Source: an uncultured Bacteroidales bacterium
Lineage (GTDB): Bacteria; Bacteroidota; Bacteroidia; Bacteroidales; P3
Reading direction: 5' to 3'
NCBI GenBank assembly: GCA_944321735.1
Contig: CALUMK010000010.1
Coordinates: forward strand, 1-64,000
DNA: 64,000 nucleotides
Positions 5,141 to 50,609 of the stretch are shown in pieces; the first letter of the stretch is position 1; every line of letters begins with the position of its first letter. The translations under genes were made by a program, and so were the position numbers. The notes beneath the pieces were generated by a model. That model made no database searches and was not told the DNA's origin. It saw nothing but the letters and a program-made list of their open reading frames with translations.

Positions 5141-5333
5141 CCCAAATCGGTCATTAGACACGCCGTGTCCGTTTCTGATTGGGGAAATGAGGCTTTCGGG
5201 CATCTTGCCCGCTTCTGTCCGCATCCTGTTTCTCGCTACGCCTCGACGTAGCCCGCTACGCCTTCGGCTAAGCGAGAAGCATGCTGCATGACACAAGCGG
5301 GCAATCTCCCCAAAGTCTAATGACCGATTTGGG
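5141..5333 (+). mobile_element. 193-bp inverted-repeat element (MITE-like), copy 1
   Basis: The ends are perfect 19-base inverted repeats, CCCAAATCGGTCATTAGAC on the left and its complement on the right. Inside are a subterminal inverted repeat (TTGCCCGCTT / AAGCGGGCAA) and a further one (TTCTCGCT / AGCGAGAA), so the whole element can fold into a long imperfect hairpin. Flanks are ATAAA and TTAAA, a 5-bp target duplication with one mismatch. No transposase is encoded, and short frames inside are incidental. Same orientation as the copy at 50417; the copies at 30125 and 30805 are reversed. Confidence 0.85.
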
Positions 5334-5391
5334 TTAAAAGTATGAGATTTAGCTAATAATTTTTCAGAAACAACTACAAATTTTTGAATAT

Positions 5392-6093
5392 CTATACTTT
5401 AAAAACCTCTTTCTGAAATGCGATACGCGGGGTGCCGTTTTCCACATGAATGATGCCGCAGCGAACGAAGCCGAGCTTGGAGAGAAGGTGCAGCATGGGG
5501 CGGTTGTCCTGATGGGTATCGACCCGGAGAACGGGATGCCGTTGCAAGCACCAGTCCATGGCAAAGGCGGCAAAGCCGTGAACGCCGGGGGCGGAGGCAA
5601 TCCGATGCAGGACATAATAAGGCTTGTCATCGGGCCAGGTGCCGTCCTCAATCCGGGCATAATTGGATTCCGGCCCAGGACGATGGCAGAACACGCCCAG
5701 AATCGGCTGCACGGGATTCGAGGCGGGAGCAGCGGACGAACTTGCCAAGACGGAGGCTTGAGGGATGGCCGGTCGGGACTGGGAAGAAGCGGGATGGCCG
5801 GAAACGAGGTCTCCTGCCCCAAGGATTCCCTCGGCAGGCCGGTCGAAACGAGCCTCGCCTTGGTGGCGATGGGCTTCGCCAACCTCATCAGAACCTATCC
5901 CAACGAACAAATGCCCGTCGGCCAAGTCCCGACGTACCACTTCCTCTTGCGGATAGCCGTCTATCCACTGGCCGGGATTACCGTTCCGACGCATGAACTC
6001 CCTCGCTTCCGCGTAAATTTCCATGACCCGCGGAATATCGGCAGGAACCGCCGGACGGATAAAACACACCTGACTTTTCAACGCTGCATTCAT
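5392..6093 (-). CDS. GNAT-family N-acetyltransferase with a low-complexity insertion
   Basis: A 233-residue protein with a GNAT fold: N-terminal FIRPAVPADIPRVMEIY, the segment ILGVFCHRPGPESNYARIEDG, GVHGFAAFAMDWCLQ in the acetyl-CoA-binding helix region, and C-terminal VDTHQDNRPMLHLLSKLGFVRCG. It probably transfers an acetyl group from acetyl-CoA to a small molecule or protein; the substrate is unknown. Residues about 72-130 are a Pro/Ser/Ala-rich stretch splitting two core strands that are normally contiguous; without it the protein would be about 175 residues, the usual family size. It is the last gene of a minus-strand group that starts with the R-M system. Confidence 0.8.
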   Translation of the reverse strand: MNAALKSQVCFIRPAVPADIPRVMEIYAEAREFMRRNGNPGQWIDGYPQEEVVRRDLADGHLFVGIGSDEVGEAHRHQGEARFDRPAEGILGAGDLVSGHPASSQSRPAIPQASVLASSSAAPASNPVQPILGVFCHRPGPESNYARIEDGTWPDDKPYYVLHRIASAPGVHGFAAFAMDWCLQRHPVLRVDTHQDNRPMLHLLSKLGFVRCGIIHVENGTPRIAFQKEVFKV

Positions 6094-6158
6094 AACCCAA
6101 ACTCAATAAAAAACGAACTTGCCCAACGAAAAAAAAACATGACAAACCTTGCAATCTG

Positions 6159-6368
6159 TCAAAACTCCTCACAATCCACCAACCCCCTGCAAACCGCCTT
6201 ATCCAACGAAAAGCCCCGCCCTTTCATCCAAGCATTTTCCTTTTTGAACTTACGCCAAGCCTGCCGCACCCCTTCCGCTTCTACAAAGGCCAATATCTGG
6301 CAATTTTCTATCACCTCCCCATCCGGAGCTTGCGTAAATCCTTCCGTTGTATAAAAAACGTACTGCAT
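6159..6368 (-). CDS. small conserved-looking hypothetical protein
   Basis: A 69-residue ORF, MQYVFYTTEGFTQAPDGE onward, with no signal peptide or membrane segment. It sits 24 bases after the methyltransferase and 65 bases before the acetyltransferase on the same strand. An AAAGG lies immediately upstream of the ATG. The composition (strand-like start, then a basic WRKFKKENAWMKGRGF segment) looks protein-like rather than random. I do not recognise a family. It could be part of the R-M operon or an unrelated conserved ORF. Confidence 0.55.
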   Translation of the reverse strand: MQYVFYTTEGFTQAPDGEVIENCQILAFVEAEGVRQAWRKFKKENAWMKGRGFSLDKAVCRGLVDCEEF

Positions 6369-6392
6369 CCTTTTAACAGCTTTCTATCGTTT

Positions 6393-7763
6393 TCATTGGG
6401 AAACATCGTGCTTATGCAACAGTACTATTCCAATTTTTTCCACGATACCCGTCACCAATGCATTCCCCATCAGAAAAGCCCTTCGCATATCCGAAACTCC
6501 TTCCGTATGCCGGTCTGGAAACATATTCAAACGCTCCAATTCGATGGGGGCAAGCCGGCGATACCGCCCACTTGGAGTCAAAACGACATGTTTGAAACGA
6601 GAAGGCCCACTGCCGCCTTCGCCTGTAATGATAGTTCGCGAGGGCTTGTCCAATGAATCTGGAAAAGCCATTCCGCCTTCGGAATACTTGTATTCAAACC
6701 CTTCCGGACTTTTCCTGACCTCACTCTTGCTGCCTTTCAAATACTTCCATTTGGGCAAATCTTCCTCCTTAATGAAAAATTCTTCGGGGACATCTTCTTC
6801 CGGCAACAGCAATTGCCCCAAAGTCAACCTTTCCCCCTCATAATTTGGAACCGTTTCGATAGTAAAAACATCCCTATTCTTCATCAAACCCGCATTCGCG
6901 AACACATATTTCTCCGCTCCTTTATTGAATTCTGCCGAAACCCGGTCCAAAGCTCCCTCTATTCGGAAACATTTCAGACTACACCTATCTTTCGCCCTCA
7001 CAGGAAATGCTAAAGCCATAGTTCCCGAAGCCAAAACCCATTCTTCCTCATTGTTGACCGAACGCGCCAATGCTGTATCGTCCCTATAGGCTACCATATA
7101 AGTGCGTCGCCTACGTTGCGGCATTCCGTATTCAGCGGCATTGATGACCCTCCATTCCACCACATAACCTAAATCACTGAGCGAAGCCAGGATGATAGCA
7201 AAGTCCCGACCACGCTGGGATGCCGGGGATTTGAGCAAACGGTCCACATTCTCAAACAACAAATAAGAAGGCTTCTCAGGCATTTCGCGAACTATCCGGT
7301 AAATCTGCCACCACAAAACACCCTTTTTCCCTTCAATGCCACCCGATCGCTTCAATGTCGTGGCTACCGAATAATCCTGACAAGGGAAACCTCCCACAAG
7401 CAAATCGCATGACGGGATTTCTTCCGTAGGGACAGTGGCAATATCTTCATTGCTATGTCCTTCCAAACCGAAACGATGGCAATATACCATGGATGCATCC
7501 TGTCTTTTAGTCGATGGCTCCCATTGATTATTCCATACAGTCTTGTACCGGGAAGAAGCTCTTTCAAGCCCGATACGAAAACCACCCACCCCGGCGAACA
7601 ACTCAACCACACGTATATCCGCAGGCAACGTTTCCACCTTTTCTATCCCAAACAATTCCATCTGCTTGAAACAAGGACGTGTCGCCTTACAATACTCCAT
7701 GATGGAATCACACAACACTCCCTTTCTTACCTTCTGCTGATGCGTATCCCTTGTGCTTTTCAT
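6393..7763 (-). CDS. DNA (cytosine-5) methyltransferase of a Sau3AI-like R-M system
   Basis: A 456-residue C5 methyltransferase that would protect the host from the neighbouring nuclease. Motifs are in the canonical order: I FAGVGGF (56-62), IV with the catalytic Cys in GGFPCQDYS (127-129), VI ENV (171-173), VIII QRRRR (216-220), then the variable target-recognition region, and motif X MGNALVTGIV near the C-terminus. It follows the nuclease gene by 55 bases on the same strand and is probably co-transcribed. Because Sau3AI-type enzymes cut GATC, the likely product is GAT-5mC; that specificity is inference from the partner. Confidence 0.92.
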   Translation of the reverse strand: MKSTRDTHQQKVRKGVLCDSIMEYCKATRPCFKQMELFGIEKVETLPADIRVVELFAGVGGFRIGLERASSRYKTVWNNQWEPSTKRQDASMVYCHRFGLEGHSNEDIATVPTEEIPSCDLLVGGFPCQDYSVATTLKRSGGIEGKKGVLWWQIYRIVREMPEKPSYLLFENVDRLLKSPASQRGRDFAIILASLSDLGYVVEWRVINAAEYGMPQRRRRTYMVAYRDDTALARSVNNEEEWVLASGTMALAFPVRAKDRCSLKCFRIEGALDRVSAEFNKGAEKYVFANAGLMKNRDVFTIETVPNYEGERLTLGQLLLPEEDVPEEFFIKEEDLPKWKYLKGSKSEVRKSPEGFEYKYSEGGMAFPDSLDKPSRTIITGEGGSGPSRFKHVVLTPSGRYRRLAPIELERLNMFPDRHTEGVSDMRRAFLMGNALVTGIVEKIGIVLLHKHDVSQ

Positions 7764-7818
7764 CTACTGTTTTTATTCGGTATCAAAAACAAACATCTCA
7801 AAAACGGACAATTTACCT

Positions 7819-9309
7819 CTACGAATATTCCTCGAACAGCCCTTTCCCCGAACCCGCATACGCCCATTGCAAAATCTTCTGCACATAGCTGCCATTGAAC
7901 CAATAAGCCTTTTTAGGAACTTCAACCCCGCTAACCGGACTAAAACTTACATCTGTCCTCCGCCTGGCTTTAGGCCGGACATGAAAATCCTTGCCATCGG
8001 AAAGTTTCCAATAGGTATTCGTTGAATCCTGCAAAGTATCTTTCACTACGTTCTGACGAATATTAAGCCAATAATCTTCCGCCTCTTTCATATCCCCCGA
8101 CGGCATCGTCCAAAAGAAAACCTTGTCAAGGACATACCGAGTCTCGTTGTCCCAACCGGTCCGGCAACCTTCCACAGCCCGGAATACTACAAAAAGGAAA
8201 CGGGATGTCACAATCTCATACCATCGGGAATCCACCCAATCTTCCGTCTCGTAAACCTCTTCGTAATCGATATTCTCAAAAGACATATCCTCTTTTATCC
8301 TTCCGTTTACTTCCACCCGGACAGTCTTGACCACCAGCCCCGCCTTACGGACTTCTTCGGCATCCTCGAATTTTGCAAGACCTTCTTTCATGATTCGCTT
8401 GACCACCCGCGCATAACGGCTCTTATCATGTGGATTTATATCCATCTTAAAAGTCTCTGCTATTTGCCTGTAATCCTGACCATTAAAAACATCAAACCTC
8501 TGAATCACCACCTGTTCAAAAGAAGACGAGGCCAGTTCCTTTACAGAAACCAACTCTATTTCAGGAAGCCGGATATCCGTATTGGTCACCATCTCTTTCC
8601 CGCTGGATTTGACAAAATCCAGAATAGTACGCATATAAGCCGGCTTCAATGAAAAAGCTCTTTGCGGAGCACCTATATCACTGAAAGGCTGCTTCCGCAA
8701 CGAGTCTCCTTTTTGTCCTTTCCGGCAAGCAGCCAGATACAAAGTATCCCCTTCTGACAATTCGTGCGCCTTGCCTGCTTTTATCTTGGAGACAATAGTT
8801 TCATAGTCTTGCTTGATAATCAACAAATCCTTATCCTGCAGTTTCCATAAAACGCTGTACAAAAATTCCAAATCCCGCAACTCTACTCCTTTGACATGCA
8901 GATAAAAAATAATAAGCATCAATAAAGATTTCTTGTAAAAAGGAGAATCCTCAAACGGAATATCTACAATTCGGCAGAAATCTATCATATCGCAAACCAG
9001 CCGTTCCTTGATTTGCAATTCTTCTTTGACGTTCCTTTTCAACGGCGTCGTTTTCAATTCCACGCCAGCCTCTTGAAAATCCGCATCCGGACAGCTATTG
9101 GGTTCATATCCATAATAGAATTTTTCCACCATCTGCCCAAGACCGCCTTTTCCTTTGCTTACAATATCCTCTGGCTTTATAGTCGAATCCAATAACGTTA
9201 CCGCCTCCGCCAAAGTCTTATGCAACAGCCCCTTGCTAAAAGCAAAAATGGAAGCCGCATCCGTAGGGTCGTAATTGCGTTTAGCTATATTGATTTTTGA
9301 TGATGTCAT
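7819..9309 (-). CDS. Sau3AI-family (MutH-like) type II restriction endonuclease
   Basis: A 496-residue protein when started at the ATG at 9309 (MTSSKINIAK); the frame is open to 9387, but the extra 26 residues look non-family. The MutH-like catalytic part contains GLGQMVEKFYYG (56-67) and DFQEAGVELK (77-86), which supplies D77, E84 and K86 of the PD-(D/E)XK site. Later LSEGDTLYLAAC and QRAFSLKPAYM are typical of the Sau3AI family, whose founder is 489 residues, has two MutH-like halves and cuts GATC. First gene of the minus-strand group; the methyltransferase follows. Confidence 0.88.
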   Translation of the reverse strand: MTSSKINIAKRNYDPTDAASIFAFSKGLLHKTLAEAVTLLDSTIKPEDIVSKGKGGLGQMVEKFYYGYEPNSCPDADFQEAGVELKTTPLKRNVKEELQIKERLVCDMIDFCRIVDIPFEDSPFYKKSLLMLIIFYLHVKGVELRDLEFLYSVLWKLQDKDLLIIKQDYETIVSKIKAGKAHELSEGDTLYLAACRKGQKGDSLRKQPFSDIGAPQRAFSLKPAYMRTILDFVKSSGKEMVTNTDIRLPEIELVSVKELASSSFEQVVIQRFDVFNGQDYRQIAETFKMDINPHDKSRYARVVKRIMKEGLAKFEDAEEVRKAGLVVKTVRVEVNGRIKEDMSFENIDYEEVYETEDWVDSRWYEIVTSRFLFVVFRAVEGCRTGWDNETRYVLDKVFFWTMPSGDMKEAEDYWLNIRQNVVKDTLQDSTNTYWKLSDGKDFHVRPKARRRTDVSFSPVSGVEVPKKAYWFNGSYVQKILQWAYAGSGKGLFEEYS

Positions 9310-9433
9310 TGCTGCAATATTCGTAAAAAGTAACGACTTCTCAAAAAATTTAACTTTTCTTATAAATCGTACGACCCTTGCCACCAAAGCAATTCCTAAC
9401 CGGGTAACAGTGGTTTTATTGCCGCCTATTTCG

Positions 9434-9441
9434 TATTTTCG
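9434..9441 (+). promoter_or_regulatory. candidate -7 box (TATTTTCG)
   Basis: TATTTTCG resembles the TAnnTTTG -7 element with T to C at the seventh base, a variant seen at several genes in this window. It lies 27 bases before the DUF4294 start codon. Confidence 0.3.
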
Positions 9442-9467
9442 CTGGTTGGAGTGTTCAAAACGGACTT

Positions 9468-10340
9468 ATGCGCATGACTTGGAGACATAGGAGGCTTGGG
9501 AGCGGCAGCAAATTGAAACTTATCTACGTGATTCAATTTGTTTTGCTGGGGTTCAGCATGGCATTGGGAGGCGGGATGACCGTGGAAGCGAAGACGAACG
9601 GAAGCATAGAAACAGAAGCAGTAGCCATACGACGAGAAAGAATCCTGCTGGAAACCGAGGCGATACCAGCACATCCCGATACGCTGCCCGTAGCTGAAAA
9701 CCAAGGGGAGCTGCTGCCGGTGCAAGTGCTGGAGCAGGTGGAGGTACACCGCAGACCGCTCACGGCCGAAGAACGTAACGAATATCTCCGTCTGGTCTAT
9801 AATGTAAGGCGCACCTACCCTTATGCCGTTCTGGCCAAGGAAAGAATGGAGCAATACAACGCCATCCGGGACTCTTTGCACGCCGCAGGCCGTAAAAGGG
9901 AATCCCGGAAATACCTCAAGGAACAAGAGCAGCAAATCCGGGACGACTTCCTGGAAGACCTCAAGAACATGACCAAAAGCCAAGGCGCGATCCTCATCAA
10001 GCTGCTGGCCCGGCAGACCGACACCACCGCCTATTTCCTACTCAAGGACTTCCGCGGCGGAGCCAGAGCCTTCGCCTACCAGACGATGGCCGTCTTCTGG
10101 GGCTACGACCTCAAAGCCGGCTACGACCCTGAAGGCGAAGACTGGGACATTGAGAGCGTTGTCCGACTCATCGAACAGAAACGCCTCAGCACGATAACCC
10201 CACGCAAGACACCCGCCTTGGACAAGAAAGCCAAGAAAAACAAGAAGAAAGCCGCTAAAGCGAGGACATCGGCAGCCACCGCACCCGCTACGCTTCCCCA
10301 AAACAGCTATGGCGGCCTGCATACCCAAAACCGAAACTAA
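9468..10340 (+). CDS. DUF4294-family secreted protein
   Basis: A 290-residue protein with an N-terminal hydrophobic segment (LKLIYVIQFVLLGFSMALGGG) that is probably a signal sequence. The DUF4294 core spans about 100-240: NEYLRLVYNVRRTYPYAVLAKERM, then GAILIKLLARQTDTTAYFLLKDFRGGARAFAYQTMAVFWGYDLKAGYDPEGEDWDIE. The last 50 residues are Lys/Ala-rich and low complexity. DUF4294 is restricted to Bacteroidota and has no known biochemical role. It precedes the AddB-like gene by about 100 bases, but the functional relation is unknown. The N-terminal start is uncertain (two ATGs six bases apart). Confidence 0.82.
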   Translation: MRMTWRHRRLGSGSKLKLIYVIQFVLLGFSMALGGGMTVEAKTNGSIETEAVAIRRERILLETEAIPAHPDTLPVAENQGELLPVQVLEQVEVHRRPLTAEERNEYLRLVYNVRRTYPYAVLAKERMEQYNAIRDSLHAAGRKRESRKYLKEQEQQIRDDFLEDLKNMTKSQGAILIKLLARQTDTTAYFLLKDFRGGARAFAYQTMAVFWGYDLKAGYDPEGEDWDIESVVRLIEQKRLSTITPRKTPALDKKAKKNKKKAAKARTSAATAPATLPQNSYGGLHTQNRN

Positions 10341-10439
10341 AACCTCCAAAAGCCCGAAACCACAAGCCGGATTCCTGGCAACCCCGATTCCGCCTTACCG
10401 GATTCCTCCAGATTGGATTCGAACGAAAAAAAACTGACC

Positions 10440-13631: not shown

Positions 13632-13753
13632 GCCCATAGACACCCTTGGAATACTGCCAAGAACGCCCAAAGTCAATCCGGCACCATCCTCTACGATAAC
13701 TTAGCGGAAAGACAGGGAAAGCACTTAGGACAACCGACAAAACGACCCGAGCC

Positions 13754-26456: not shown

Positions 26457-26537
26457 TTTGGCATCGTGCCAAGAATCCCCCTTCACCACCTTCTCATCTT
26501 GCGAATCGCAACCAAAAGTTTTGGCTGATTCCTTAAA

Positions 26538-26603
26538 CCCAAATCGGACATTAGACTTTTGGCAATCAGAACCGAACTCAGCGAGGCTAATGACCGATTT
26601 GGG
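26538..26603. mobile_element. 66-bp internally deleted inverted-repeat element
   Basis: The left end CCCAAATCGGACATTAGAC and right end CTAATGACCGATTTGGG match the termini of the 193-bp family (one base changed on the left), but only about 30 unrelated bases lie between. Flanks are TTAAA and TTTAA, near-matching 5-bp A/T duplications. It ends 12 bases from the stop codon of the YiiX-like gene. Confidence 0.8.
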
Positions 26604-26615
26604 TTTAAGATATTT

Positions 26616-30088: not shown

Positions 30089-30124
30089 TTCCTTAGCTTG
30101 CTTTACCTATCGATACCCCTTAAA

Positions 30125-30317
30125 CCCAAATCGGTCATTAGACTTTGGGTAGATTGTCCGCTTATGTCATGCAGCATGCTTCTCGCCTAGCCGAAGGCGT
30201 AGCGGGCTACGTCGAGGCGTAGCGAGGAGCAAGATGCGGACAGAAGCGGGCAAGATGCCCGAAAGCCTCACTTTCCCAATCAAAAACGGACTCGGCGCGT
30301 CTAATGACCGATTTGGG
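30125..30317 (-). mobile_element. 193-bp inverted-repeat element (MITE-like), copy 2
   Basis: Same family as the element at 5141 but inverted. It has perfect 19-base termini and an exact 5-bp target duplication, TTAAA, at 30120-30124 and 30318-30322. Confidence 0.9.
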
Positions 30318-30392
30318 TTAAAGGCATAGAGCAGCAAAAATACAAAAACCTCTCTGATTCCCGGAAAAACCGTAATATTGGAACCCGCAGAT

Positions 30393-30673
30393 GGCGGTGT
30401 GTCATAATGAGCAATCGGCTTCGTTGCTTTGGTTTCACCGAAAACAGGCTGCACCTCGGCCAAACTCGAACCTATCGGCTGGGTTTGGCTCTCGGTTTGC
30501 ACTGTTTTTCGAGTCTCGGACTCAGTCACGAACCGCAGTGCAAGCCGAATGCAGAGGGCATGTCTGCTTGCACTATGCTGAGGCGCAGCCTGCGTTCGCT
30601 GCGGAGCAGCAACAGTACGCTCCTTCGTTCTCGCTCTCTGCGCCTTGCATCTTACTCACTCTGACACACCGCC
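30393..30673. repeat. 281-bp hairpin element with self-complementary ends
   Basis: The left end GGCGGTGTGTCATAATGAG pairs with the right end CTCACTCTGACACACCGCC (two mismatches). The inner bases CTTCGTTGC (left) and GCATCTTA (right) recur in the shorter element at 37635-37754, whose outer arms are different but again complementary to each other. The centre carries GCAGTGCAAGCCGAATGCAG and GCTGAGGCGCAGCCTGC, shared with the repeat near 23510-23575. Confidence 0.65.
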
Positions 30674-30804
30674 TGAGATTTATTTCAAATCCCTATTTTG
30701 ATACACCCTCATCTTTCTCCTAAGCTGCATTTTCTACTTGAACTTGCTCAGGCAAGCGAAACCCAATCTTGCATTTCCAAACGCAGACACGGTTCCCTAT
30801 TTAT

Positions 30805-30996
30805 CCCAAATCGGTCATTAGACTTTGGGAGATTGCCCGCTTGTGTCATGCAGCATGCTTCTCGCCTAGCCGAAGGCGTAGCGGGCTACGTCGAGGCGTA
30901 GCGAGAAACAGGATGCGGACAGAAGCGGGCAAGATGCCCGAATGCCTCATTTTCCTAATCAGAAACGGACTCGGCGTGTCTAATGACCGATTTGGG
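30805..30996 (-). mobile_element. 192-bp inverted-repeat element (MITE-like), copy 3
   Basis: Inverted relative to copy 1. Termini match the family and the exact 5-bp duplication TTTAT is present at 30800-30804 and 30997-31001. Confidence 0.9.
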
Positions 30997-31070
30997 TTTA
31001 TAGAACATACCACATTATTTGTACCTTTGGCTGTAGCGAAGGTAGCTTGGCCACCATCGTCTAAACAAGC

Positions 31071-31340: not shown

Positions 31341-33215
31341 ATGGCTGAAAAGAAAGAATTTATTTCAAATCGAAAAGCTGTCACATATCTTGATTTGTTT
31401 GCAGGGGCTGGAGGATTCAGCGAGGGTTTCATGCAAGCCTATACGGATGACAAATACTATGACTTCCGTCTGGCGAGCGACATTAACGAGAATTGCGAAC
31501 TTACGCACCGTATCCGCTATAACAAGATGCTCGGACTTGACACAAAATTCATATGCCAAGACATCATGGAGGATTCCTTTCTGCCGAATCTCTTGAAAGA
31601 AATCGGCAATCAAGAAATAGATGTCGTCACAGGGGGACCGAGCTGCCAATCATTCAGCCTCGCAGGACGTAGAAGAAAACTCGATAAGCGCGATGATTTG
31701 TTTTATCATTATTTGAAGGTCATCAAAGCCTTACGCCCTAAATATTTCGTAATGGAAAATGTTAAAGGAATCCTTACCAAAGATGAAGGACGCATAAAAG
31801 AGAGGATTCTTCGTGAAATCAGGTCAATCGTTGACGATACAAAGATGTACATGTTGTTTGCCTTCATGGATGATGTCCTTAAGCCACAAATGCCCAATTC
31901 GCTTTATTACGCTTTATATGTCAGGTTGCATATGGAAACATCCATAGATGATGCAGACAAACAAAATGAAATCTTCTTCAATAACCTTGACCAACAGCTG
32001 AAAGATATCACCAAACATCTCCCTTATAGCGTAAGCAAGAGTGACAAATACGTAAATACAATTCGTCATGGGCTTTTGTTGCTTCAAATGAAGCAGCAGC
32101 GTGAAGCCATCCGCAAGCAGGTTATTCAACTGAAAACCAACGCTCATATCGACAACGATACCTTTGTAGACGGCTACAATAATATCATCGAGACCCTATC
32201 GGACGAACAGATTCGCGAAAAGACTTTGAATGCGATTGATAAGATAGCAGAAAGGGGAGATTGCGCAGAAGAAGCCAAAACGCTGAAAAAATCCCTTGAA
32301 ATCCTTACTTCCACTTTCGATGAGTGTATTGAGTATATCCAAAAACAACTCCAAGACAATAAAAGCATTCTCGACCATCTGAACGACTTAATGAAGGAGA
32401 TACGATTATATAACATAGAGGAACCCTTGATACTCCTCTCTTCCAATTATGGCGTGCCACAGAATCGGGAAAGGGTTGTATTTATTGGCTGCCGGAACGA
32501 TCAGGAAGTAATCAATGAGATTCCTCCAACAGTTGCAGAAAAAGACAAGGTAAATGTCTATGAGGCACTTTGGGACTTGAACATGGTTGGCAATGGTGAA
32601 ACCGCCACTTCGTATAAGAAACCTGAATTGATTCCCGAATTTGAAAGCACAAAAATCCAACGAGCTGTTCAAGGCGAACCTGACAAACGCGGGCTTCTAT
32701 TCTCCGAATGGTCAAAGATTGGCCGTCTAGGGCATCGGTTCACATTCGATGAAAAACCCTTTTATATACTGAATATGAACGACTTGAATAAACCAACAAA
32801 ATACCAACGCATGGAACTTTTCAATCATCAGACAAGTCTTCAGAATAACACTGTGCGTGAACGATTGAAAATCATTGCCAAGTATGGATCCTATGATGAT
32901 GCAAAAGCAGAACTCCAAGCCAAAGGGGTAGCATCTCAAAAGCGTAATTATGTAGTCCTGAATCCCCTCGGACAAAGCCCGACTGTCTGCACGATGCCTG
33001 ATGACTTCATTCATTATTCCGCATACCGTCCTACGACTGTCCGAGAAATGGCGCGTCTGCAGAGTTTTGACGATTCATTTGTTTTCCAAGGGAAGCGTCA
33101 GACCGGAGGCAATAACCGTCAAAAGGAAATACCCCAATATACATTGGTAGGCAATGCCGTTCCTCCGCTAATGGCAAGAGCCATCGCCAACACCTTATTG
33201 AAACATATTAAATAG
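31341..33215 (+). CDS. DNA (cytosine-5) methyltransferase of an MvaI/BcnI-like R-M system
   Basis: A 624-residue C5 methyltransferase. Motif I FAGAGGF (20-26), motif IV GGPSCQSFS (98-106) where the usual second Pro is Ser but the catalytic Cys102 is kept, motif VI MENV (138-141), motif VIII QNRERV (374-379), and motif X GNAVPPLMARAIA near the end. The 235 residues between motifs VI and VIII are normally about 40; the extra segment is largely helical and charged (KQQREAIRKQVIQL, DEQIREKTLNAID). It lies 13 bases upstream of the nuclease. Base composition is visibly more A/T-rich than the flanking housekeeping genes, suggesting horizontal acquisition. Confidence 0.92.
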   Translation: MAEKKEFISNRKAVTYLDLFAGAGGFSEGFMQAYTDDKYYDFRLASDINENCELTHRIRYNKMLGLDTKFICQDIMEDSFLPNLLKEIGNQEIDVVTGGPSCQSFSLAGRRRKLDKRDDLFYHYLKVIKALRPKYFVMENVKGILTKDEGRIKERILREIRSIVDDTKMYMLFAFMDDVLKPQMPNSLYYALYVRLHMETSIDDADKQNEIFFNNLDQQLKDITKHLPYSVSKSDKYVNTIRHGLLLLQMKQQREAIRKQVIQLKTNAHIDNDTFVDGYNNIIETLSDEQIREKTLNAIDKIAERGDCAEEAKTLKKSLEILTSTFDECIEYIQKQLQDNKSILDHLNDLMKEIRLYNIEEPLILLSSNYGVPQNRERVVFIGCRNDQEVINEIPPTVAEKDKVNVYEALWDLNMVGNGETATSYKKPELIPEFESTKIQRAVQGEPDKRGLLFSEWSKIGRLGHRFTFDEKPFYILNMNDLNKPTKYQRMELFNHQTSLQNNTVRERLKIIAKYGSYDDAKAELQAKGVASQKRNYVVLNPLGQSPTVCTMPDDFIHYSAYRPTTVREMARLQSFDDSFVFQGKRQTGGNNRQKEIPQYTLVGNAVPPLMARAIANTLLKHIK

Positions 33216-39413: not shown

Positions 39414-39442
39414 TTTGTTATAAAAATTTATAGGTTTATTTT

Positions 39443-42295: not shown

Positions 42296-42329
42296 TGTAT
42301 TCGTCGATTTTGCTTTCTGAAATTCGGCG

Positions 42330-42337
42330 CAAAAGTA
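42330..42337 (-). promoter_or_regulatory. candidate -7 box (TACTTTTG) for the TonB receptor operon
   Basis: Minus-strand TACTTTTGC lies 34 bases before the receptor start codon. Confidence 0.5.
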
Positions 42338-42669
42338 GAAGCTAGTTGTTACGATTTCCCATACGGAATTATTGCCTTTCTATGGAGTATTTGTTACGGA
42401 ATCATTTCAATGCCCCAAAAGACGACACGCCAGAAAACCTGATACCACACAAACAGCATACCTATATATAATAGTAGGAGATGCACCTTTCCACCCGCCA
42501 TAGAAAAGACAATCCGATACGAGGAAAGGAACCGCACACCGTCCCATTTAACATTTGTTAACTCTTTTTTAACCCGCTTAACATTTTTTTAGAAGCACAT
42601 TCTTAGACATTTAACTTTTCATAGTTAATTTTTTTTCAGAAACGGGCAAGGAATGTTAAAGCCGTTCAC

Positions 42670-42699
42670 TTGGCTTTATGGAAAAATTATCTAAATTTG
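42670..42699 (+). promoter_or_regulatory. candidate promoter of the SusC/SusD operon
   Basis: TTGG at 42670-42673, 18 bases, then TAAATTTG at 42692-42699, an exact match to TAnnTTTG. Start of transcription would fall near 42706. Confidence 0.65.
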
Positions 42700-42906
42700 C
42701 TACCCTCAATTTAATGCCGAAGTGTGGGCAATAGGGAATCTTTCCCCATCAGAACGGGTTCTGAAAGCCAACCAAAGCATTGAAACTTATTGAAGAGCGA
42801 TGAAACAGATCGGATACCGTTCGAGATACGCATGAGTGTTGATGGATGACTCTCTTGCGAATAGAAAACACGAATTAAATAACACAAATCCAAATCAGCT
42901 TTTTTT

Positions 42907-45900
42907 ATGAAAAAACTAGTGCTCTTTGTGGTGTCCTTGTTCCTTATGGGAGCCGCCAACATGGCTTTCGGGCAACGCACCGTCACAGGTAAGGTCACGA
43001 GTGCGGATGACCCGATGGGTATCCCCATGGTGGCAGTCCAAATCGAAGGGACAACGATTGGTACCTCAACCGACCTCAATGGTGTTTACACCTTGAACAA
43101 CATCCCCGCCACGGCCAAGAACCTGAAATTCTCGGCTATGGGTATGAAAGACAAAATCGTGCCTATTACCAGCGGTGTGATCAATGTCGTGATGGAAACA
43201 CAAGCCGTTGCGTTGCAGGAAGTCCAAGTTTCCGCCTCCGGTTACGGGGTACGCAAGAAAGTGGACAATGTAGGTTCTGCTGTCGAGGTAGGTGAAGAAG
43301 TCATCACCCGTCAAACAGAATCCAACGTAATCAACTCCCTGCAAGGTAGTGTTCCTGGTATGCAGGTTAGTACGGCTTCCGGACAGCCCGGTTCGTCAAC
43401 TACCGTCCGTATTCGTGGTACAAGCTCCTTGTCCTCCGGCAACGACCCCTTGTACGTAATCGACGGGGTGCCCATCATTACCGGAGCCATGGGTATGACA
43501 TCCTACACCGATGGACAAGGTACCGACCCTCTGGCATCTTTGAATCCTGAAGATATCGAAAGCATCCAGTTGCTGAAAGACGCTAGTGCCACATCCATCT
43601 ATGGTTCGCGTGCCTCCAACGGGGTTATCGTAGTTACCACGAAAAAAGGTAAAGAAGGCAAGGTTTCCTTCGGGGTCAATGCCAAAATCGGTCTTTCCAC
43701 GCCTCCTAACGTAAAGAAGCGTTTCCAGAAAGTGAACATGGAAGACTTCAAGGACTTCTTGTTCGAATCCCGTCTGAACACAGCCGCCGTTAACGAAAGA
43801 ACTTATTACCGTTGGATCAACAATCCTGATTTGGCGCTGTCTTACTATGCCGAAACGCCGTCCATGAATATCGATTTCTTGAACAATAACGGCTTCCGTA
43901 CGGCAGAAGAAATCGCCGAATATGGCCCGAACACGATTTATTATACCGACTGGTGGGATGAAGTGACCCGCAACGGCCTCATCCAAGACTACTCGATGAC
44001 CGCATCGGGTGGCACCAAGAACGTCAACTACTATGCATCGGTTGGCTATTTCAACAACAAAGGTATTGTCATCGGATCTGACTACACCCGGTACAACGCT
44101 CGTTTGAACTTGGATGTCAATCCTACCGACTGGTTGTCTTTCGGTATGAACTTGACCGGGTCGTATGCCGAAGTAAACACGGTTCCTACCGGTCTGGCTT
44201 ACGCTTCGCCTATCTGGGGCGCTTCCATGATGCGTCCGACAGACCCCGTTTACGCCACCGACCCTGTTACCGGTGAAGTAAACTACAACGAATGGAACTA
44301 CACGACCAACCCGGCTTCGCAAGGTTACAACCCGGTAGCCCTTTATACCGATGAATACCGCGACCGCGCTTTCCAGCAGCAGTACAAAGCCTTGTTCAGC
44401 CCGTACTTGCGTGTCAAGCTGTACAAGAATTTGTATGTGCAGTCCAAGATTGGTATCGACTTTGTAACTTTGAAAGAAGAAAACGTTTGGTCGATGGTCG
44501 TTAACCCGCAAGGTCAGGACTTGGGCGGTTTGACCCAGATACAGGATGAAACCTACGCCTACATGAACATCACCAACACCATCAACTGGATGCCTTCCAT
44601 CAAGAAGAACAACTTCAATATCTTGATCGGTCAGGAAGCCCAGAGGTTCAACAACTACACCTCTTTTGTTTCCGGTCAGGGTTACGCTACTCCGCAGTTG
44701 ATGGCTGTCTCCAATGCTACCGACACCCGTGGTGCTGCTAACCGTGCGGATGCTACCTTGGCTTCTTACTTCGGTAACATCGAATACGATTATGACAACA
44801 AGTACTACGTATCTGCCAGTGTACGTCGCGATGGTTCTTCCCGTTTCGGTGAAGACAAACGCTGGGGTACCTTCTGGTCGGTAGGTGCAAGATACCGTAT
44901 CTCGGCTGAACGCTTCATGGCTGCCACACAAAACTGGTTGAACAACTTGAGCGTACGTATCAGCTACGGTACTTCCGGTAACCAGAACGTAGGGTACTAC
45001 CAGGCTCGCGGGGTTTACGCCTCGACCCGTTATGGCGGTCTTGCCGGTTTCGGTCCTTCTCAGTTGGCCAACCCCAATCTGGAATGGGAATCCAGAAATA
45101 AATTCGACGTGGGTTTGGAATTCATGTTGTTCAACGTGTTGACCGTTGAAGCAGACTACTACAACGACCGCACTGTCGATATGATTTTCTCCCGTCCTCT
45201 GTCTTACGCTACCGGTTTCGGTGCCATTGCCACCAACTTGGGTAGCATGCGTAACCAAGGGGTTGAAATCCAAGTGAGCGCCTTGCTGATGAACCGCAAG
45301 AACTTCCGCTGGACCTTGGGATTCAATATCACCACTAACGACAATAGGGTACTGGAATTGCCCGACCACCAACCGATCCAAAGCGGTACCATCGGACGTA
45401 TCGAAGAAGGCCGTCCTTCCAGCCAGTTGTACATGCGCGAATGGGCAGGCGTTGACCCTGCGACAGGCCGTCCCCGCTGGTATGGAGAAAACGGTGAATA
45501 CGTTTTCAACTACAACGATGCAGCCCTGCGTTATGTCGGCTTCAGCGACCCCAAATTCTACGGAGGTTTGCAGATGGGCTTTGAATTCTACAACTTCGAT
45601 ATCAGCTTCCAGTTCAACTACAACTACGGTAACTATATCTTGAGCAACGACCTTCCGTATTTGGAAAACGAAGGCCACCAGCCCGGCCAGACCACTACCT
45701 ACTGGATTATGGAAAACCGTTGGCAGCGTCCCGGCGATGATGTCGTAGTTCCGCAATTGATGAATGGCGGTAACAACAACGCCAACCAGTTGAGCTCCCG
45801 TCTGCGTATGTCCGGATCCTACCTCCGTCTCAAATCCATCATGGTAGGATACACCTTGCCCAAGAAACAGTGCGAAAAGATTTTCTTGAGCAGCCTGCGT

Positions 45901-46044
45901 ATCTATGCCAGCATCGACAATGCGTGGACCTGGTGCGCCAAGGACTTCCGCGGGTACGACCCCGAATCCGGTTTGAGCGCAATCCAAACCTCAAACTATC
46001 CTGTGCCAATCAACTATTCGATCGGTCTTAATGTTGGATTCTAA
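42907..46044 (+). CDS. SusC/RagA-family TonB-linked outer-membrane transporter
   Basis: A 1045-residue SusC-like channel. Signal peptide ends NMAFG, with Gln23 next; then a carboxypeptidase-regulatory-like domain (TVTGKVTSADDPMGIPMVAVQIEGT), the SusC-specific plug (NVINSLQGSVPGMQVSTASGQ, IRGTSSLSSGNDPLYVIDGVPI, IESIQLLKDASATSIYGSRASNGVIVVTTKKG) and the barrel to INYSIGLNVGF. It forms the transport half of a pedal-bin complex with the following SusD-like lipoprotein. Known substrates of such pairs are glycans or peptides. No glycoside hydrolase, sulfatase or sensor is nearby, so a peptide or other ligand is as likely as a glycan. Confidence 0.95.
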   Translation: MKKLVLFVVSLFLMGAANMAFGQRTVTGKVTSADDPMGIPMVAVQIEGTTIGTSTDLNGVYTLNNIPATAKNLKFSAMGMKDKIVPITSGVINVVMETQAVALQEVQVSASGYGVRKKVDNVGSAVEVGEEVITRQTESNVINSLQGSVPGMQVSTASGQPGSSTTVRIRGTSSLSSGNDPLYVIDGVPIITGAMGMTSYTDGQGTDPLASLNPEDIESIQLLKDASATSIYGSRASNGVIVVTTKKGKEGKVSFGVNAKIGLSTPPNVKKRFQKVNMEDFKDFLFESRLNTAAVNERTYYRWINNPDLALSYYAETPSMNIDFLNNNGFRTAEEIAEYGPNTIYYTDWWDEVTRNGLIQDYSMTASGGTKNVNYYASVGYFNNKGIVIGSDYTRYNARLNLDVNPTDWLSFGMNLTGSYAEVNTVPTGLAYASPIWGASMMRPTDPVYATDPVTGEVNYNEWNYTTNPASQGYNPVALYTDEYRDRAFQQQYKALFSPYLRVKLYKNLYVQSKIGIDFVTLKEENVWSMVVNPQGQDLGGLTQIQDETYAYMNITNTINWMPSIKKNNFNILIGQEAQRFNNYTSFVSGQGYATPQLMAVSNATDTRGAANRADATLASYFGNIEYDYDNKYYVSASVRRDGSSRFGEDKRWGTFWSVGARYRISAERFMAATQNWLNNLSVRISYGTSGNQNVGYYQARGVYASTRYGGLAGFGPSQLANPNLEWESRNKFDVGLEFMLFNVLTVEADYYNDRTVDMIFSRPLSYATGFGAIATNLGSMRNQGVEIQVSALLMNRKNFRWTLGFNITTNDNRVLELPDHQPIQSGTIGRIEEGRPSSQLYMREWAGVDPATGRPRWYGENGEYVFNYNDAALRYVGFSDPKFYGGLQMGFEFYNFDISFQFNYNYGNYILSNDLPYLENEGHQPGQTTTYWIMENRWQRPGDDVVVPQLMNGGNNNANQLSSRLRMSGSYLRLKSIMVGYTLPKKQCEKIFLSSLRIYASIDNAWTWCAKDFRGYDPESGLSAIQTSNYPVPINYSIGLNVGF

Positions 46045-46082
46045 AAGCTTGGATTAAGAACAAATCATAAAAAGAAAAAGAG

Positions 46083-47810
46083 ATGAAAAAAATTCAAAAT
46101 ATAGCAATCGTAGCAGCCATGGTTCCCGTTGTGCTGTTCTCGTCCTGCTCGAACGATTTCTTTGACAGGACTCCAGAAACGGCCATGGACACGGAAGTCG
46201 TCCTCAGCGACCCCTCCTTGGTTCCGAGCACCGTCGTGGGTACAATGGCCATGATGTATTCGGCTGGCGCATGGGGACGGGATTTGACAGTAGTAGGAGA
46301 TGTCATGACCGACCTTGTCAGCACCATCCGGAGCAACCAAGGTACCATGCGTGATATCGAACAATGGATTATCACCACATCGTCCACCGATGCAGCCAGC
46401 TACTGGGCCGGACCTTACCAGATTGCAGCCAGTGCTGCCCGTACCGTTGAAGCGGCCAAACGTCTGTTGGCGGATTCCGCTTCCTTGAACGAAACGGAAA
46501 TCACCAACTTGAATAGTGCCATTGCAGCCTCTTTGACAATCAAAGTTCTTTGCGAATATACTTTGGCTCAGTTCTTCTGCGTGGATTACAACCTGACGGA
46601 TGTTCCAGGCAACAACCCCACGAAGGTCGGTCTCATTCTGCTCCGCGACAGGGCGTTGAATACGGACGAACCAGCCAATATGTCCTCGCTGGAAGACAGC
46701 TACACCTTCATGGAACAAGAAATTGCAGAAGCCATCGAGCGGTTTGAAGCAGTGGGCGGTACGTTTACTTTGCAGGTAAGCCAAGATACGCGTTTCTATC
46801 CTACGCTGGGTGCTGCCTATATGGTTCAGGCTCGTGTTTACTTAGCACAGCATCAATACCAAGAGGCTTTGACCGCTGTGGAAAACGCGCTTGCCAACTT
46901 GCCAAGCGGTGCCCAGGCAGAACTGATTACAACGGAAGAAGCTCTTGTTGACGCATACGGTGAAACGCCTTCTTCGGAAGACATCTGGTTGCTGAACTAC
47001 ACCACCCAGGACAACCTTTCCGCCAATAGCTTGAATACCTTGTTCGGTTCTTACGGTTTCAGCCCTACCAAATATGCGGTGGATCTGTTCAACGGTACCG
47101 ACATCCGGAGCGCCCTGTACGGTGGCTGGCCCGATGGAGTCCAACCCAGCGAAGAAAGCAGCAGCTGGTGCTTGAAATATCCGGCTGATAACGGCGTCTT
47201 CAATGTACCGGTTCTCCGTGTTCCTGAATTGTACTTGATGAAAGCAGAATGCCAAGCCGCCATGAACGATGTTGCTTCTGCAAGAACAACCTTGATCGAA
47301 AATTTGATTTCCAAGAGGGATACCGTAATTGACATGGACAATTACTCCAACTATGAGGCTTATTCCGACCTTGCTGGAACCGAATGGAAATCCGGATACG
47401 ATAACAATGGGGTTGCTGAAGGCTTCTTGGCCGGACTCTTGAAGGAATACACCCGCGAACTCTTGTGCGAAGGCCAACGTTGGTCCACTCTGCGCAGAAA
47501 CGGGGTATCGCTGAACCGCAACGGTTCTGCTACCAACGAACAGTTCAGAAGCCACTTCCTGCAGTATCCTGTAAGCCGGTTCTCTTTCCCGGTTCCGTTT
47601 GTCGAATTTACGACCCAGCAATGGATCGATGGCCGTCCGATTGACTTGAACGGCAAATTCATCCCCGGTCAGAACGCCAACTGGCAGACCAATGCCTGGG
47701 ACAAGCCGAACGGTCAGGACTACAGCCCGCAAATCGAATTGCCGCAAGACGGTTACGACTACAACAACCGGAATGATCAAGCGGGAACTCCGATGGCAAC
47801 AGCCAAATAA
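46083..47810 (+). CDS. SusD/RagB-family surface lipoprotein
   Basis: A 575-residue lipoprotein with lipobox LFSSC (Cys23), 38 bases after SusC on the same strand. The alpha-helical TPR-like SusD fold is visible in the segments AAYMVQARVYLAQHQYQEALTAVENAL, PVLRVPELYLMKAECQAAMNDVASARTTL and LKEYTRELLCEGQRWSTLRRNG (the usual C-terminal signature ExxGEGxRWxDLxR in altered form). It is the ligand-binding lid of the SusCD complex at the cell surface. Confidence 0.93.
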   Translation: MKKIQNIAIVAAMVPVVLFSSCSNDFFDRTPETAMDTEVVLSDPSLVPSTVVGTMAMMYSAGAWGRDLTVVGDVMTDLVSTIRSNQGTMRDIEQWIITTSSTDAASYWAGPYQIAASAARTVEAAKRLLADSASLNETEITNLNSAIAASLTIKVLCEYTLAQFFCVDYNLTDVPGNNPTKVGLILLRDRALNTDEPANMSSLEDSYTFMEQEIAEAIERFEAVGGTFTLQVSQDTRFYPTLGAAYMVQARVYLAQHQYQEALTAVENALANLPSGAQAELITTEEALVDAYGETPSSEDIWLLNYTTQDNLSANSLNTLFGSYGFSPTKYAVDLFNGTDIRSALYGGWPDGVQPSEESSSWCLKYPADNGVFNVPVLRVPELYLMKAECQAAMNDVASARTTLIENLISKRDTVIDMDNYSNYEAYSDLAGTEWKSGYDNNGVAEGFLAGLLKEYTRELLCEGQRWSTLRRNGVSLNRNGSATNEQFRSHFLQYPVSRFSFPVPFVEFTTQQWIDGRPIDLNGKFIPGQNANWQTNAWDKPNGQDYSPQIELPQDGYDYNNRNDQAGTPMATAK

Positions 47811-47860
47811 AGGAGAATCCTCCTATCAAAGAGGGTGACTAAAACACCTCTTTCTATACG

Positions 47861-47897
47861 AAGCGGCCCTGTTAGAAGTTTTCTAACAGGGCCGCTT
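47861..47897 (+). terminator. hairpin after the SusC/SusD operon
   Basis: A perfect 17-base stem (AAGCGGCCCTGTTAGAA and its complement) with a three-base loop, 50 bases after the SusD stop. It lacks a good T run on the plus strand. Confidence 0.7.
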
Positions 47898-47959
47898 CCG
47901 TTATAATAGGAAGTTTTTGGCCAGCCTCTTTTTTTGTATACCTCATTGAAATATTTTTG

Positions 47960-47967
47960 TAATTTTG
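47960..47967 (+). promoter_or_regulatory. candidate -7 box (TAATTTTG) for the WbpM-like gene
   Basis: An exact TAnnTTTG match 106 bases before the ATG at 48073. A TTTG lies at 47933-47936, 23 bases upstream of the box, slightly farther than typical. Confidence 0.45.
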
Positions 47968-48072
47968 TAAGTTGGTATTTGCATACTGGCATCTGTTCTT
48001 GATTTTCCGGGCTCACCCCCGCACAAACAAGGCGTATGCCAGCATAAATGTTGAGAAAAGCGAGCTCCTAGA

Positions 48073-50001
48073 ATGACACTTTCTTTAGGAACAAAACTGG
48101 CCAAGAAAATCATAAGCGAACCCTATATAAACCGTTGGTTTGTGTTGGCTTTCGACCTCGTTGTGTCCACAATAGGGACATGCGCGTCGTATGCTTTGTG
48201 CCGAAGGCTGTTCCATCAGACATTCCAATCCACCTCCTTTGTAGAAATAGCTCTTTTCAGCTTGTTTTCCAGTGCTATAGGATTCCTGCTTTTCAAAACG
48301 TACAAAAACATCATCCGGCATTCGTCCATGCAATCCATTTGGCGGATTGCTGCCGCACTCATGGTCAAAGTCTTATTTGTCGGCTTGGCCTTGCTCTTGT
48401 ACGGACATATCTCCAATATGGAAATAGGCGTCACTCTGCTGATCGATATCAGTTTCACTTTTTCTTGCCTGGTATTGTCGCGGGTGGTCGTAGTCATTGC
48501 CTATCAATACGCGATCAACAACTCAAATAAGACAAAACAGAATGTCTTGATTTATGGAGCCAATCCAAACGATTTGACTCTTAGCAGCGTATTAAACTTA
48601 AATACCCAATCGAACTATAAAATTGCAGGTTACCTCCGTTTTGGGAAAAGAGCGGACACTTACCCCATCGGCAATCTTCCCGTTTATGTACTCGACCGGG
48701 TAAACAGCATCAAGGCAATCATCGAAAAAGACGACATAGAAGGCATACTTTTCACTCGCCAGTCCGATATATGGAACGAACGGAATCGATTGATTGCTTA
48801 CTGCCTATCCCGGAACTTGAAATTATTCACGGTTCCCCCTATCGGGAAATGGCGCCACTCGATTCCCCAAGTCCGGAAACTGGACATCTCCGATTTGCTT
48901 GGAAGGGAAGAAATACAAATCAATACCTTGCAAATAGCCGAAGACCTCCACGACAAGACCATCGTGGTAACGGGTGCGGCTGGTTCCATCGGCAGCGAAC
49001 TCTGCCGCCAAATCGCATCGTTCCAAGTCCGCAGGCTGGTCTTGTTCGACAATTGCGAGACAGGCATCCATAACCTGCGCCTCGAACTGGAAGAAAAATT
49101 CCCAAAACTGGAATTGGTTCCCATGGTCGGCGATGTGCGCTTCAAAGAACGCCTCACCCACCTCTTTGAAACCTACCACCCCCAGATTGTATTCCATGCC
49201 GCGGCATACAAGCACGTTCCTTTAATGGAAAGCAATCCCAACGAAGCCTTTATGGTCAATGTGGTCGGAACCCGGAACATTGCCCACATGGCATTGAAAT
49301 ACCAAGCCGAAAAATTCGTCATGATTTCTACCGACAAGGCTGTGAATCCGACCAATGTCATGGGGGCTTCCAAACGTCTGGCGGAAATCTATGTACAAAG
49401 CCTGAACTACGCCATCAAAGCCGGCAGGGTCGCAGGCAAAACCCAGTACATAACCACCCGTTTCGGCAATGTATTAGGCAGCCAAGGTTCGGTCATCCCT
49501 CTCTTCGAATCGCAGATTTCCAAAGGCGGCCCGGTCACGGTTACCCATCCGGAAATCACACGCTACTTCATGACAATCCGAGAAGCCTGCCTTTTGGTCT
49601 TGGAAGCATCCAATATAGGACATGGAGGCGATATCCTGGTATTCGACATGGGCACGCCTATCAAGATAGCAGACCTTGCCAAGAAGATGATTCTCCTTTC
49701 CGGATATAATCTGGACACCATCAAAATAGAATATACCGGCCTCCGCCCAGGAGAAAAACTATACGAAGAGGTATTGAGTTCCATAGAACATACACACCCA
49801 ACCTCGAACAAGAAAATCCGGATTGCAGATGCCAGGGTCTATGACTTCGAGGATTTGCTGCCCGATTACGATCAATTGGAGGCATTGGCCCGCAACTGCA
49901 AGACAGAAGATGCTGTAAAGAAAGCCAAGGAAATCGTCCCTGAGTTCATCAGCAATAATTCCGAATTTGCAAAATTGGATCGAAAAACCGTAGCTGCATA
50001 A
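48073..50001 (+). CDS. membrane nucleoside-sugar 4,6-dehydratase (WbpM/FlaA1-like)
   Basis: A 642-residue enzyme for surface polysaccharide precursor synthesis. Four transmembrane segments lie in the first 150 residues, followed by a CoA-binding-like Rossmann domain (VLIYGANPNDL) and a C-terminal short-chain dehydratase domain with NAD(P)-binding VTGAAGSIGSELCRQ (from about 299) and the catalytic-region STDKAVNPTNVMGASKR (from about 419). Family enzymes convert UDP-GlcNAc to the 4-keto-6-deoxy sugar. A single gene, convergent with yraN. Confidence 0.9.
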   Translation: MTLSLGTKLAKKIISEPYINRWFVLAFDLVVSTIGTCASYALCRRLFHQTFQSTSFVEIALFSLFSSAIGFLLFKTYKNIIRHSSMQSIWRIAAALMVKVLFVGLALLLYGHISNMEIGVTLLIDISFTFSCLVLSRVVVVIAYQYAINNSNKTKQNVLIYGANPNDLTLSSVLNLNTQSNYKIAGYLRFGKRADTYPIGNLPVYVLDRVNSIKAIIEKDDIEGILFTRQSDIWNERNRLIAYCLSRNLKLFTVPPIGKWRHSIPQVRKLDISDLLGREEIQINTLQIAEDLHDKTIVVTGAAGSIGSELCRQIASFQVRRLVLFDNCETGIHNLRLELEEKFPKLELVPMVGDVRFKERLTHLFETYHPQIVFHAAAYKHVPLMESNPNEAFMVNVVGTRNIAHMALKYQAEKFVMISTDKAVNPTNVMGASKRLAEIYVQSLNYAIKAGRVAGKTQYITTRFGNVLGSQGSVIPLFESQISKGGPVTVTHPEITRYFMTIREACLLVLEASNIGHGGDILVFDMGTPIKIADLAKKMILLSGYNLDTIKIEYTGLRPGEKLYEEVLSSIEHTHPTSNKKIRIADARVYDFEDLLPDYDQLEALARNCKTEDAVKKAKEIVPEFISNNSEFAKLDRKTVAA

Positions 50002-50010
50002 GCATAATAC

Positions 50011-50400
50011 CTATCCACCAAAAGGAGCAAATGCATTCTCTATATGCTCCACGACCCGATAGAAGATTTGCCGGCCTTGACGCCGGCATTCCACCCAAAT
50101 GATATCAAAGCGGATATCCATGGTCAATGCATGCTGACGCACATATCGGGAAGCGGCGGAATACAAAAACATCTGCTTCCGCCAATCCACGGCACAGGGT
50201 GCGGCCAACAAAGCATTGGACGCCCTGGTCTTGACCTCTACAAAAACCAGAATTCCCTCCTTTTCGACAATCAAATCGATTTCCCGATGCCGAGAGCGAT
50301 AATTGGCTTCTAAGACCCGATACCCCAACGACTGCAAGTAAGCTGCAGCCCATCGTTCGCCGCCTTTGCCTGCGTTCCTGTATGCCAGCGAATATCCCAT
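50011..50400 (-). CDS. YraN/UPF0102-family putative endonuclease
   Basis: A 129-residue protein of the UPF0102 family, a restriction-endonuclease-like fold. The motif is GKGGERWAAAYLQSLGYRVLEANYRSRHREIDLIVEKEGILVFVEVKTR, containing the E-x-D and E-V-K residues of the family. Role unproven; such proteins are linked to DNA processing or recombination. It converges on the dehydratase with nine bases between stops. A 193-bp inverted-repeat element lies just upstream of its start. Confidence 0.9.
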   Translation of the reverse strand: MGYSLAYRNAGKGGERWAAAYLQSLGYRVLEANYRSRHREIDLIVEKEGILVFVEVKTRASNALLAAPCAVDWRKQMFLYSAASRYVRQHALTMDIRFDIIWVECRRQGRQIFYRVVEHIENAFAPFGG

Positions 50401-50416
50401 ATATAGCCGTATTTAA

Positions 50417-50609
50417 CCCAAATCGGTCATTAGACACGCCGGGGCTGTTTTCGGTTAGGAAAATGAGGCTTTCGGGCATCTTGCCCGCTTCTGTCCGCAT
50501 CCTGTTTCTCGCTACGCCTCGACGTAGCCCGCTACGCCTTCGGCTAGGCGAGAAGCATGCTGCCTGACACAAGCGGGCAATCTCCCCAAAGTCTAATGAC
50601 CGATTTGGG
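50417..50609 (+). mobile_element. 193-bp inverted-repeat element (MITE-like), copy 4
   Basis: Same orientation as copy 1. Perfect 19-base termini and an exact 5-bp duplication, TTTAA, at 50412-50416 and 50610-50614. Its left end is 17 bases upstream of the yraN start codon, so it may displace or supply that gene's promoter. Confidence 0.92.

Follow-up and report, generated by a model that had tools for sequence, protein, structure and literature searches.

A short inverted-repeat element of an uncultured Bacteroidales bacterium: a MITE family probably derived from IS1380

Background

Four inverted repeats of about 193 bp are spread over a 64,000-nt stretch of DNA from an uncultured Bacteroidales bacterium (hereafter the window, part of contig C10 of G000, a 2.71-Mb draft genome of 39 contigs, 94.67% complete). 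What these repeats are, and how such sequences could have multiplied, was the question addressed here. A sequence-only reading had taken them for a MITE mobilised in trans, a proposal supported by the copies, the target duplications (exact in 42 of 49 cases), the empty sites in relatives and the existence of autonomous IS elements that share its outer 17 bases and its duplications. Judged from sequence comparison, the four repeats are very probably copies of an IS1380-derived MITE family on which a transposase would act in trans, because their outer 17 bases and 5-bp A/T duplications match those of full-length IS1380 elements (about 1.47 kb).

Copies of the element in the window

Direct reading of the sequence recovered the four full copies at the positions previously given, with lengths of 193, 193, 192 and 193 bp. 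As had been described, the 19-base terminus was perfect at 8 of 8 ends, two copies lay in each orientation, and the 5-bp duplication was exact for three copies and matched at 4 of 5 positions for the copy at 5141. An internal-deletion derivative with 1 mismatch per end had been overlooked. The features are listed below, G001 and G006 being sister genomes.

5141-5333 (with flanks 5136..5338), minus strand: full copy, 193 bp; flanks ATAAA / TTAAA, 4/5
30125-30317 (with flanks 30120..30322), plus strand: full copy, 193 bp; flanks TTAAA / TTAAA; site element-free in G001 and G006
30198..30211, plus strand: hairpin apex of copy 30125, CGTAGCGGGCTACG; one of the most strongly conserved parts of the interior and also present in elements of a second genus
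30805-30996 (with flanks 30800..31001), plus strand: full copy, 192 bp; flanks TTTAT / TTTAT; apparently common to G006
50417-50609 (with flanks 50412..50614), minus strand: full copy, 193 bp; flanks TTTAA / TTTAA; G001 and G006 without the copy, by spacing
26538-26603 (with flanks 26533..26608), plus strand: deletion derivative, 66 bp; flanks TTAAA / TTTAA, 4/5

A search of the window for the 19-base terminus at up to 3 mismatches yielded 10 matches for 0.03 expected, a number reached in 0 of 100 shuffles: the eight exact matches were the ends of the four copies and the two with one mismatch those of the 66-bp remnant. The long hairpin claimed for the copies was confirmed by a single-strand DNA fold of copy 5141-5333 (-57.1 kcal/mol versus a shuffle mean of -26.5, z = -9.0), and none of 200 shuffles was equally stable. 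An Rfam search of the window gave no match at the gathering score, and a tRNA scan found none.

A second repeat is present at positions 30393-30673, between two MITE copies. Its 22-bp inverted arms (GGCGGTGTGTCATAATGAGCAA) are 86% complementary and lie 237 nt apart, and many partial matches to it were found in G006, G007 and G001. The window also contains two DNA cytosine-5 methyltransferase genes (6393-7763, minus strand, and 31341-33215, plus strand), with TIGR00675 above cut-off.

Distribution and target sites

Searching the whole of G000 for the terminus at up to 3 mismatches, as the earlier reading had advised, revealed 80 forward and 79 reverse ends, against 1 and 0 for a reversed-pattern control; two DNA searches each scored at least 40 places. 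The stretches examined contained 52 paired elements, of which 33 were 193 bp long, 13 were 195 bp, 2 were 192 bp and one each was 191, 137, 77 and 66 bp; thus 49 of 52 had the 191-195 bp length of a short, gene-less element with inverted-repeat ends. Ten ends were unpaired, 7 of them at contig ends. Within the 195-bp subfamily 9 of 13 copies were identical (3 others had 99% and one 96% identity to the query), and identical pairs made up 39 of the 78 in this subfamily, compared with 7 of 630 for the remaining 36 full-length copies. The nine identical copies point to recent transposition of the family.

Within the genus, the terminus was detected at up to 2 mismatches in 4 of 13 genomes (forward/reverse ends: G000 70/72, G006 207/212, G007 44/45, G001 18/17). 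A query with the 193-bp element, scored at about 4 places in each genome, matched 28 of 189 genomes of the family. These belong to 2 of 12 genera, and in the second of them a large share of the matches comprised only 20-30 bp of the end or of the core. Viral contigs gave no exact match to the terminus. Remnants of 25 bp (CCCAAATCGGTCATTAGACTTTGGG), flanked by ATAAA and TTAAA, were seen in two genomes (L040 near 2020-2045, L078 at 1454-1478) and are possibly deletions between internal and terminal TTTGGG.

Examination of the flanks of the 49 full-length copies confirmed the duplications: 42 were exact over 5 bp, and 7 were not (5 at 4/5, 1 at 3/5 and 1 at 2/5). For all 52 paired elements the figures were 43 exact, 6 at 4/5, 1 at 3/5 and 2 at 2/5. 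Pairing the flanks of different copies gave 9.5 exact duplications expected for the 42 found (n = 49), a control value as high as this because the target itself is biased. The other widths from 2 to 8 showed no signal among the 49 full-length copies. The target can be written nTnAn, since each of the 49 left flanks carried T as its second and A as its fourth base; TTAAA (18), TTTAA (9), ATAAA (8) and TTTAT (5) were the commonest left flanks.

Most of the 49 copies lay 1-650 bp from neighbouring ORFs according to rough ORF calls. For 8 of the 49 an ORF was called as an open frame right up to the element, and some of these copies may have inserted into a gene. With respect to flanking genes, 21 copies were tandem, 12 convergent, 9 divergent and 7 unassigned, the rough calls having overlooked a UPF0102 gene beside copy 50417, which was counted as tandem and is divergent once this gene is included. 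The UPF0102 start follows that copy at a distance of 16 bp, and a topoisomerase III start follows copy 30125 at 36 bp.

Comparison with sister genomes, also proposed earlier, supplied three empty sites, one of them clean and two of a supporting kind, as evidence of transposition. A copy additional in G006 has TTGAA on both sides where the window holds a single TTGAA, as expected of a clean insertion. At the site of copy 30125 the flanks are contiguous, without element, in G001 (97.6% and 98.3% identity) and G006 (95.7% and 99.2%); the bases at the empty site, read by eye, were TTACG and TTTAC, respectively, and differ from TTAAA of the window. The region of copy 50417 is 190 bp shorter in G001 and 194 bp shorter in G006, a difference of spacing between flanks only 74-79% identical, at which the junction is unreadable base by base. 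Copy 30805 appears to be common to the window and G006, where its halves occupy the end of contig C2 and the start of C7, with TTTAT outside each. The 66-bp remnant is present in G001. The family thus combines many copies with absence from some sites in relatives.

Relationship to the IS1380 family

The suggestion that a transposase-encoding element with matching ends might be found was partly borne out: full-length IS1380 elements carry these ends in other Bacteroidales, and none was found in G000. Transposase searches of G000 covered PF01609 and PF13701, and in this draft assembly neither the PF13701 profile nor tblastn detected an IS1380 transposase, hence no cognate IS in the same genome. 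The gene may be missing for technical reasons, given 39 contigs, 94.67% completeness and 7 contig ends inside copies of the element; we infer that it has been lost from G000 or is unassembled.

Among the 13 genomes of the genus, PF13701 had a single match, a 197-aa fragment of G006 truncated at its start. It scored above cut-off with PF13701 (8.9e-20) and, being a fragment, under the whole-protein cut-off with the IS1380 model NF033539 (2.7e-28). About 30 bp past its stop codon stands the end CCCAAATCGGTCATTAGGA (17 of 19 bases), preceded by TTTAA. By eye, this truncated IS1380 adjoins a stretch resembling the MITE interior (L098, 2140-2240), perhaps an IS-MITE junction.

A search of genome contigs provided 46 candidate stretches, of which 33 were confirmed as encoding relatives; the hosts were Prevotella, Palleniella, Hallella, Phocaeicola, unnamed Bacteroidales and others. 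Fifty loci (L099-L148) were scanned for termini, and 12 had two ends 1.2-1.8 kb apart (11 from the contig search and L100 from the tblastn search, with L118 and L119 representing one strain). In ten of the 12, which measured 1465-1471 bp, neither 17-base end had a mismatch; L100 (1430 bp) and L132 (1444 bp) each had a single mismatched base, at one end. Their flanks were identical over 5 bp in 7 cases (ATAAA, TTTAT, TTTAA, TTAAA) and agreed at 4/5 in 3, at 3/5 in one and at 2/5 in one. An open frame of 442-471 aa was present in 10 of the 12, and the two transposases tested both scored above the IS1380 cut-off (9e-72 and 7.1e-74).

The outer 17 bases of the MITE are therefore identical to the IS ends, and duplication length and target are alike. 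Bases 18-19 differ between the MITE end and the full-length IS1380 elements examined in sequence. In a second genus (g4), ends were located next to short IS1380 C-terminal matches at contig edges in G045 and G057 (27-29 residues; E-values 8.6e-6 to 2.4e-4 and 4.5e-7), and these ends match that of the MITE for 22 bp. The likeness stops at the ends (17-22 bases), and the MITE does not contain the interior of the IS. These common features suggest that the enzyme acting here is of IS1380 type.

Other candidate partners were examined and discarded. Among the G006 candidates listed for termini 0.8-3 kb apart within the genus, two (2.3 and 2.5 kb) resolved into a MITE plus a lone end and into two separate MITEs. 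Most of the 12 places with PF01609 transposases in G001, G006 and G007 had no terminus at up to 4 mismatches nearby; one of them, L096, was the IS1380 fragment itself, and another, L093, had a complete MITE nearby.

The hairpin interior in two genera

The DNA examined from the second genus contained 23 distinct pairs of 17-base ends at most 0.7 kb apart. Twelve were 191-193 bp long, 60-67% identical to a window copy and exact for the core CGTAGCGGGCTACG, 7 of these 12 having been chosen because they matched; the other 11 had other lengths, between 109 and 439 bp. In all 12 the core began at offset 73 and in the same orientation, as in the 193-bp window copies. Larger elements with the same ends (L202 of G114, 262 bp; L219 of G064, 331 bp; L215 and L200 of G057, 261 and 352 bp) gave the visual impression of a 193-bp element into which hairpin modules of about 69 bp, at least one in each, had been inserted at different internal places. 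Four others from G064 (L207, L210, L216 and L225; 226-439 bp) had interiors unlike that of the window element between identical IS1380-type ends, so that in this genus the transposase signal may be common to several MITE families.

A joint fold of 16 elements from both genera gave 61 pairs, 22 of which showed both-sided change in some sequence. These elements form alignment A3, a subset of the 20-row alignment A2; both alignments retain the divergent rows C19:13263 and L068, the latter being excluded from both group consensuses in the single-copy test described below. When compared with 500 shuffles, the cells paired (96.1% vs 84.9), the cells changed on both sides (116 vs 46.4) and the covariation score (0.332 vs 0.144; 0.06-0.09 in slid versions) were reached by none, the pairs with both-sided change (22 vs 19.1) by 21 and the further pair types (47 vs 45.3) by 158; the alignment tested here is also the one that supplied the structure, and since relatedness is not modelled in the shuffles, related sequences can exceed them without any structure. 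When the structure was taken from a single window copy, 24 of its 54 internal pairs differed on both sides in the second-genus consensus and 17 of these 24 still paired, for 9.4 expected (4 of 10,000 shuffles). Two of 6 one-sided changes still paired.

A G-U wobble test on 80 copies from the genus, de-duplicated by flank with some duplicates possibly remaining, was null: wobble-keeping and wobble-breaking alleles numbered 19 vs 23 in paired and 14 vs 12 in unpaired columns (Fisher p 0.62). An RNA reading of the hairpin was discarded in view of this lack of strand preference. A side hairpin near the 3' end (columns ~143-180) was also discarded, as it is not conserved between genera. The palindrome was read as being kept at the DNA level, either by function or by template-switch correction.

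Alternative explanations

Long stable hairpins located largely between predicted ORFs (by the rough calls) could also belong to a non-transposon repeat of the host that recombination has spread, such as a hairpin that stabilises or terminates transcripts. This is scarcely credible, however, in the face of exact 5-bp duplications around most copies, the G006 copy cleanly inserted at what is a single TTGAA in the window, ends common to IS1380 elements, the lack of any preference in gene orientation as judged by the same rough calls, and wobble alleles without strand-specific G-U bias. Transposition by an enzyme of another family sharing IS1380-like ends is also improbable, if slightly less so. 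The candidate would be a 400-aa DDE_Tnp_1 protein encoded on contig C4, which together with a 96-codon piece at the end of C26 accounts for the two PF01609 matches of G000, a genome in which the family searches were those for PF01609 and PF13701. Yet no terminus at up to 5 mismatches was found around either gene (1.5 kb on each side for the first), and it is IS1380 elements that have the same ends and duplications.

It is less easily dismissed, though still doubtful, that the interior is a functional folded module, of RNA or DNA, selected for itself rather than passive filler. The both-sided cells and the covariation score, neither matched by any shuffle, speak for such a module, as do the 17 changes still paired under a structure from one window copy. 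Against it, shuffles did reach the count of both-sided pairs and that of further pair types, the structure came from the alignment on which it was scored, relatedness was ignored by the shuffles, just 2 of 6 one-sided changes paired and the wobble test within the genus was null; moreover, palindrome correction by template switching would give the same pattern without selection. The idea that the hairpin, with its nearly fixed length of ~193 bp, its constant CGTAGCGGGCTACG apex and its covarying arms, is a working part of the element is likewise tentative and rather unlikely. If it were true, a DNA fold could for instance unite both ends on one strand and permit efficient movement by a foreign or rare IS1380 transposase, and it could explain why G006, in which the search detected no intact IS1380, has over 200 ends on each strand.

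According to the preferred reading, that of an IS1380-derived MITE, an IS1380-family transposase would recognise in trans the 17-19-bp inverted ends of a mostly 191-195-bp non-coding element, mobilise it and insert it at nTnAn with duplication of 5 bp. A process at the level of the DNA fold, be it transposition efficiency or palindrome correction, seems to maintain the internal palindrome.

Comparison with known systems

The MITEs of Porphyromonas gingivalis (MITE239, MITE464/MITEPgRS, MITE700 and BrickBuilt), to which the sequence-only reading had pointed, are alike in being non-coding inverted-repeat elements of Bacteroidales. That hint was not supported: the terminal repeats published for them differ when compared by eye, matching IS5-family elements, and none in Table 2 of PMC4596501 resembles CCCAAATCGGTCATTAGAC.

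The Bacteroidales members of the IS1380 family (NF033539) found here have the outer 17 bases of the MITE and 5-bp A/T duplications, whereas the MITE has no transposase gene and measures about 193 bp, not about 1.47 kb. The likeness was established for these Bacteroidales members; named members of the family include ISEcp1, IS613 and IS942 (PMC9330008), and for IS1247, another member, 5-bp repeats are listed (PMC3281130). In the papers examined that treat both IS1380 and MITEs, those MITEs tied to an IS or transposon family were tied to IS1182 or Tn3, and one paper found no similarity to its ISs; further sources were PMC5771137, PMC10969869, PMC4133298 and PMC3542288. The open-access literature searched yielded no IS1380-driven MITE, and no paper in it printed the 14-base end string as text. 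The family is ordinary in kind and apparently new as a family.

Similar elements have been described in other hosts. MITECca01 of Cardinium, about 240 bp long, is also abundant (169 copies) and its parental IS has been identified, but it belongs to family IS982 and intact parental copies reside in the same genome (PMC9769881). MITEPye1 of Paracoccus yeei is likewise small; its ends resemble those of an IS, and it has direct repeats as well as a long stem-loop. It differs by its IS1182-family ends and its 1-3 chromosomal copies (PMC11578231). PINSR of Prevotella intermedia is a short intergenic repeat too (188 bp, 177 and 184 copies in two strains), although stated to be without terminal inverted repeats (PMC4755523).

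A high-copy Bacteroidales repeat is now linked to the IS1380 family, which is better known for moving and activating resistance genes (PMC9330008). A family whose copies are almost identical, whose target follows a clear rule and whose hairpin covaries across two genera is a good system for asking whether the interior of a MITE affects its spread.
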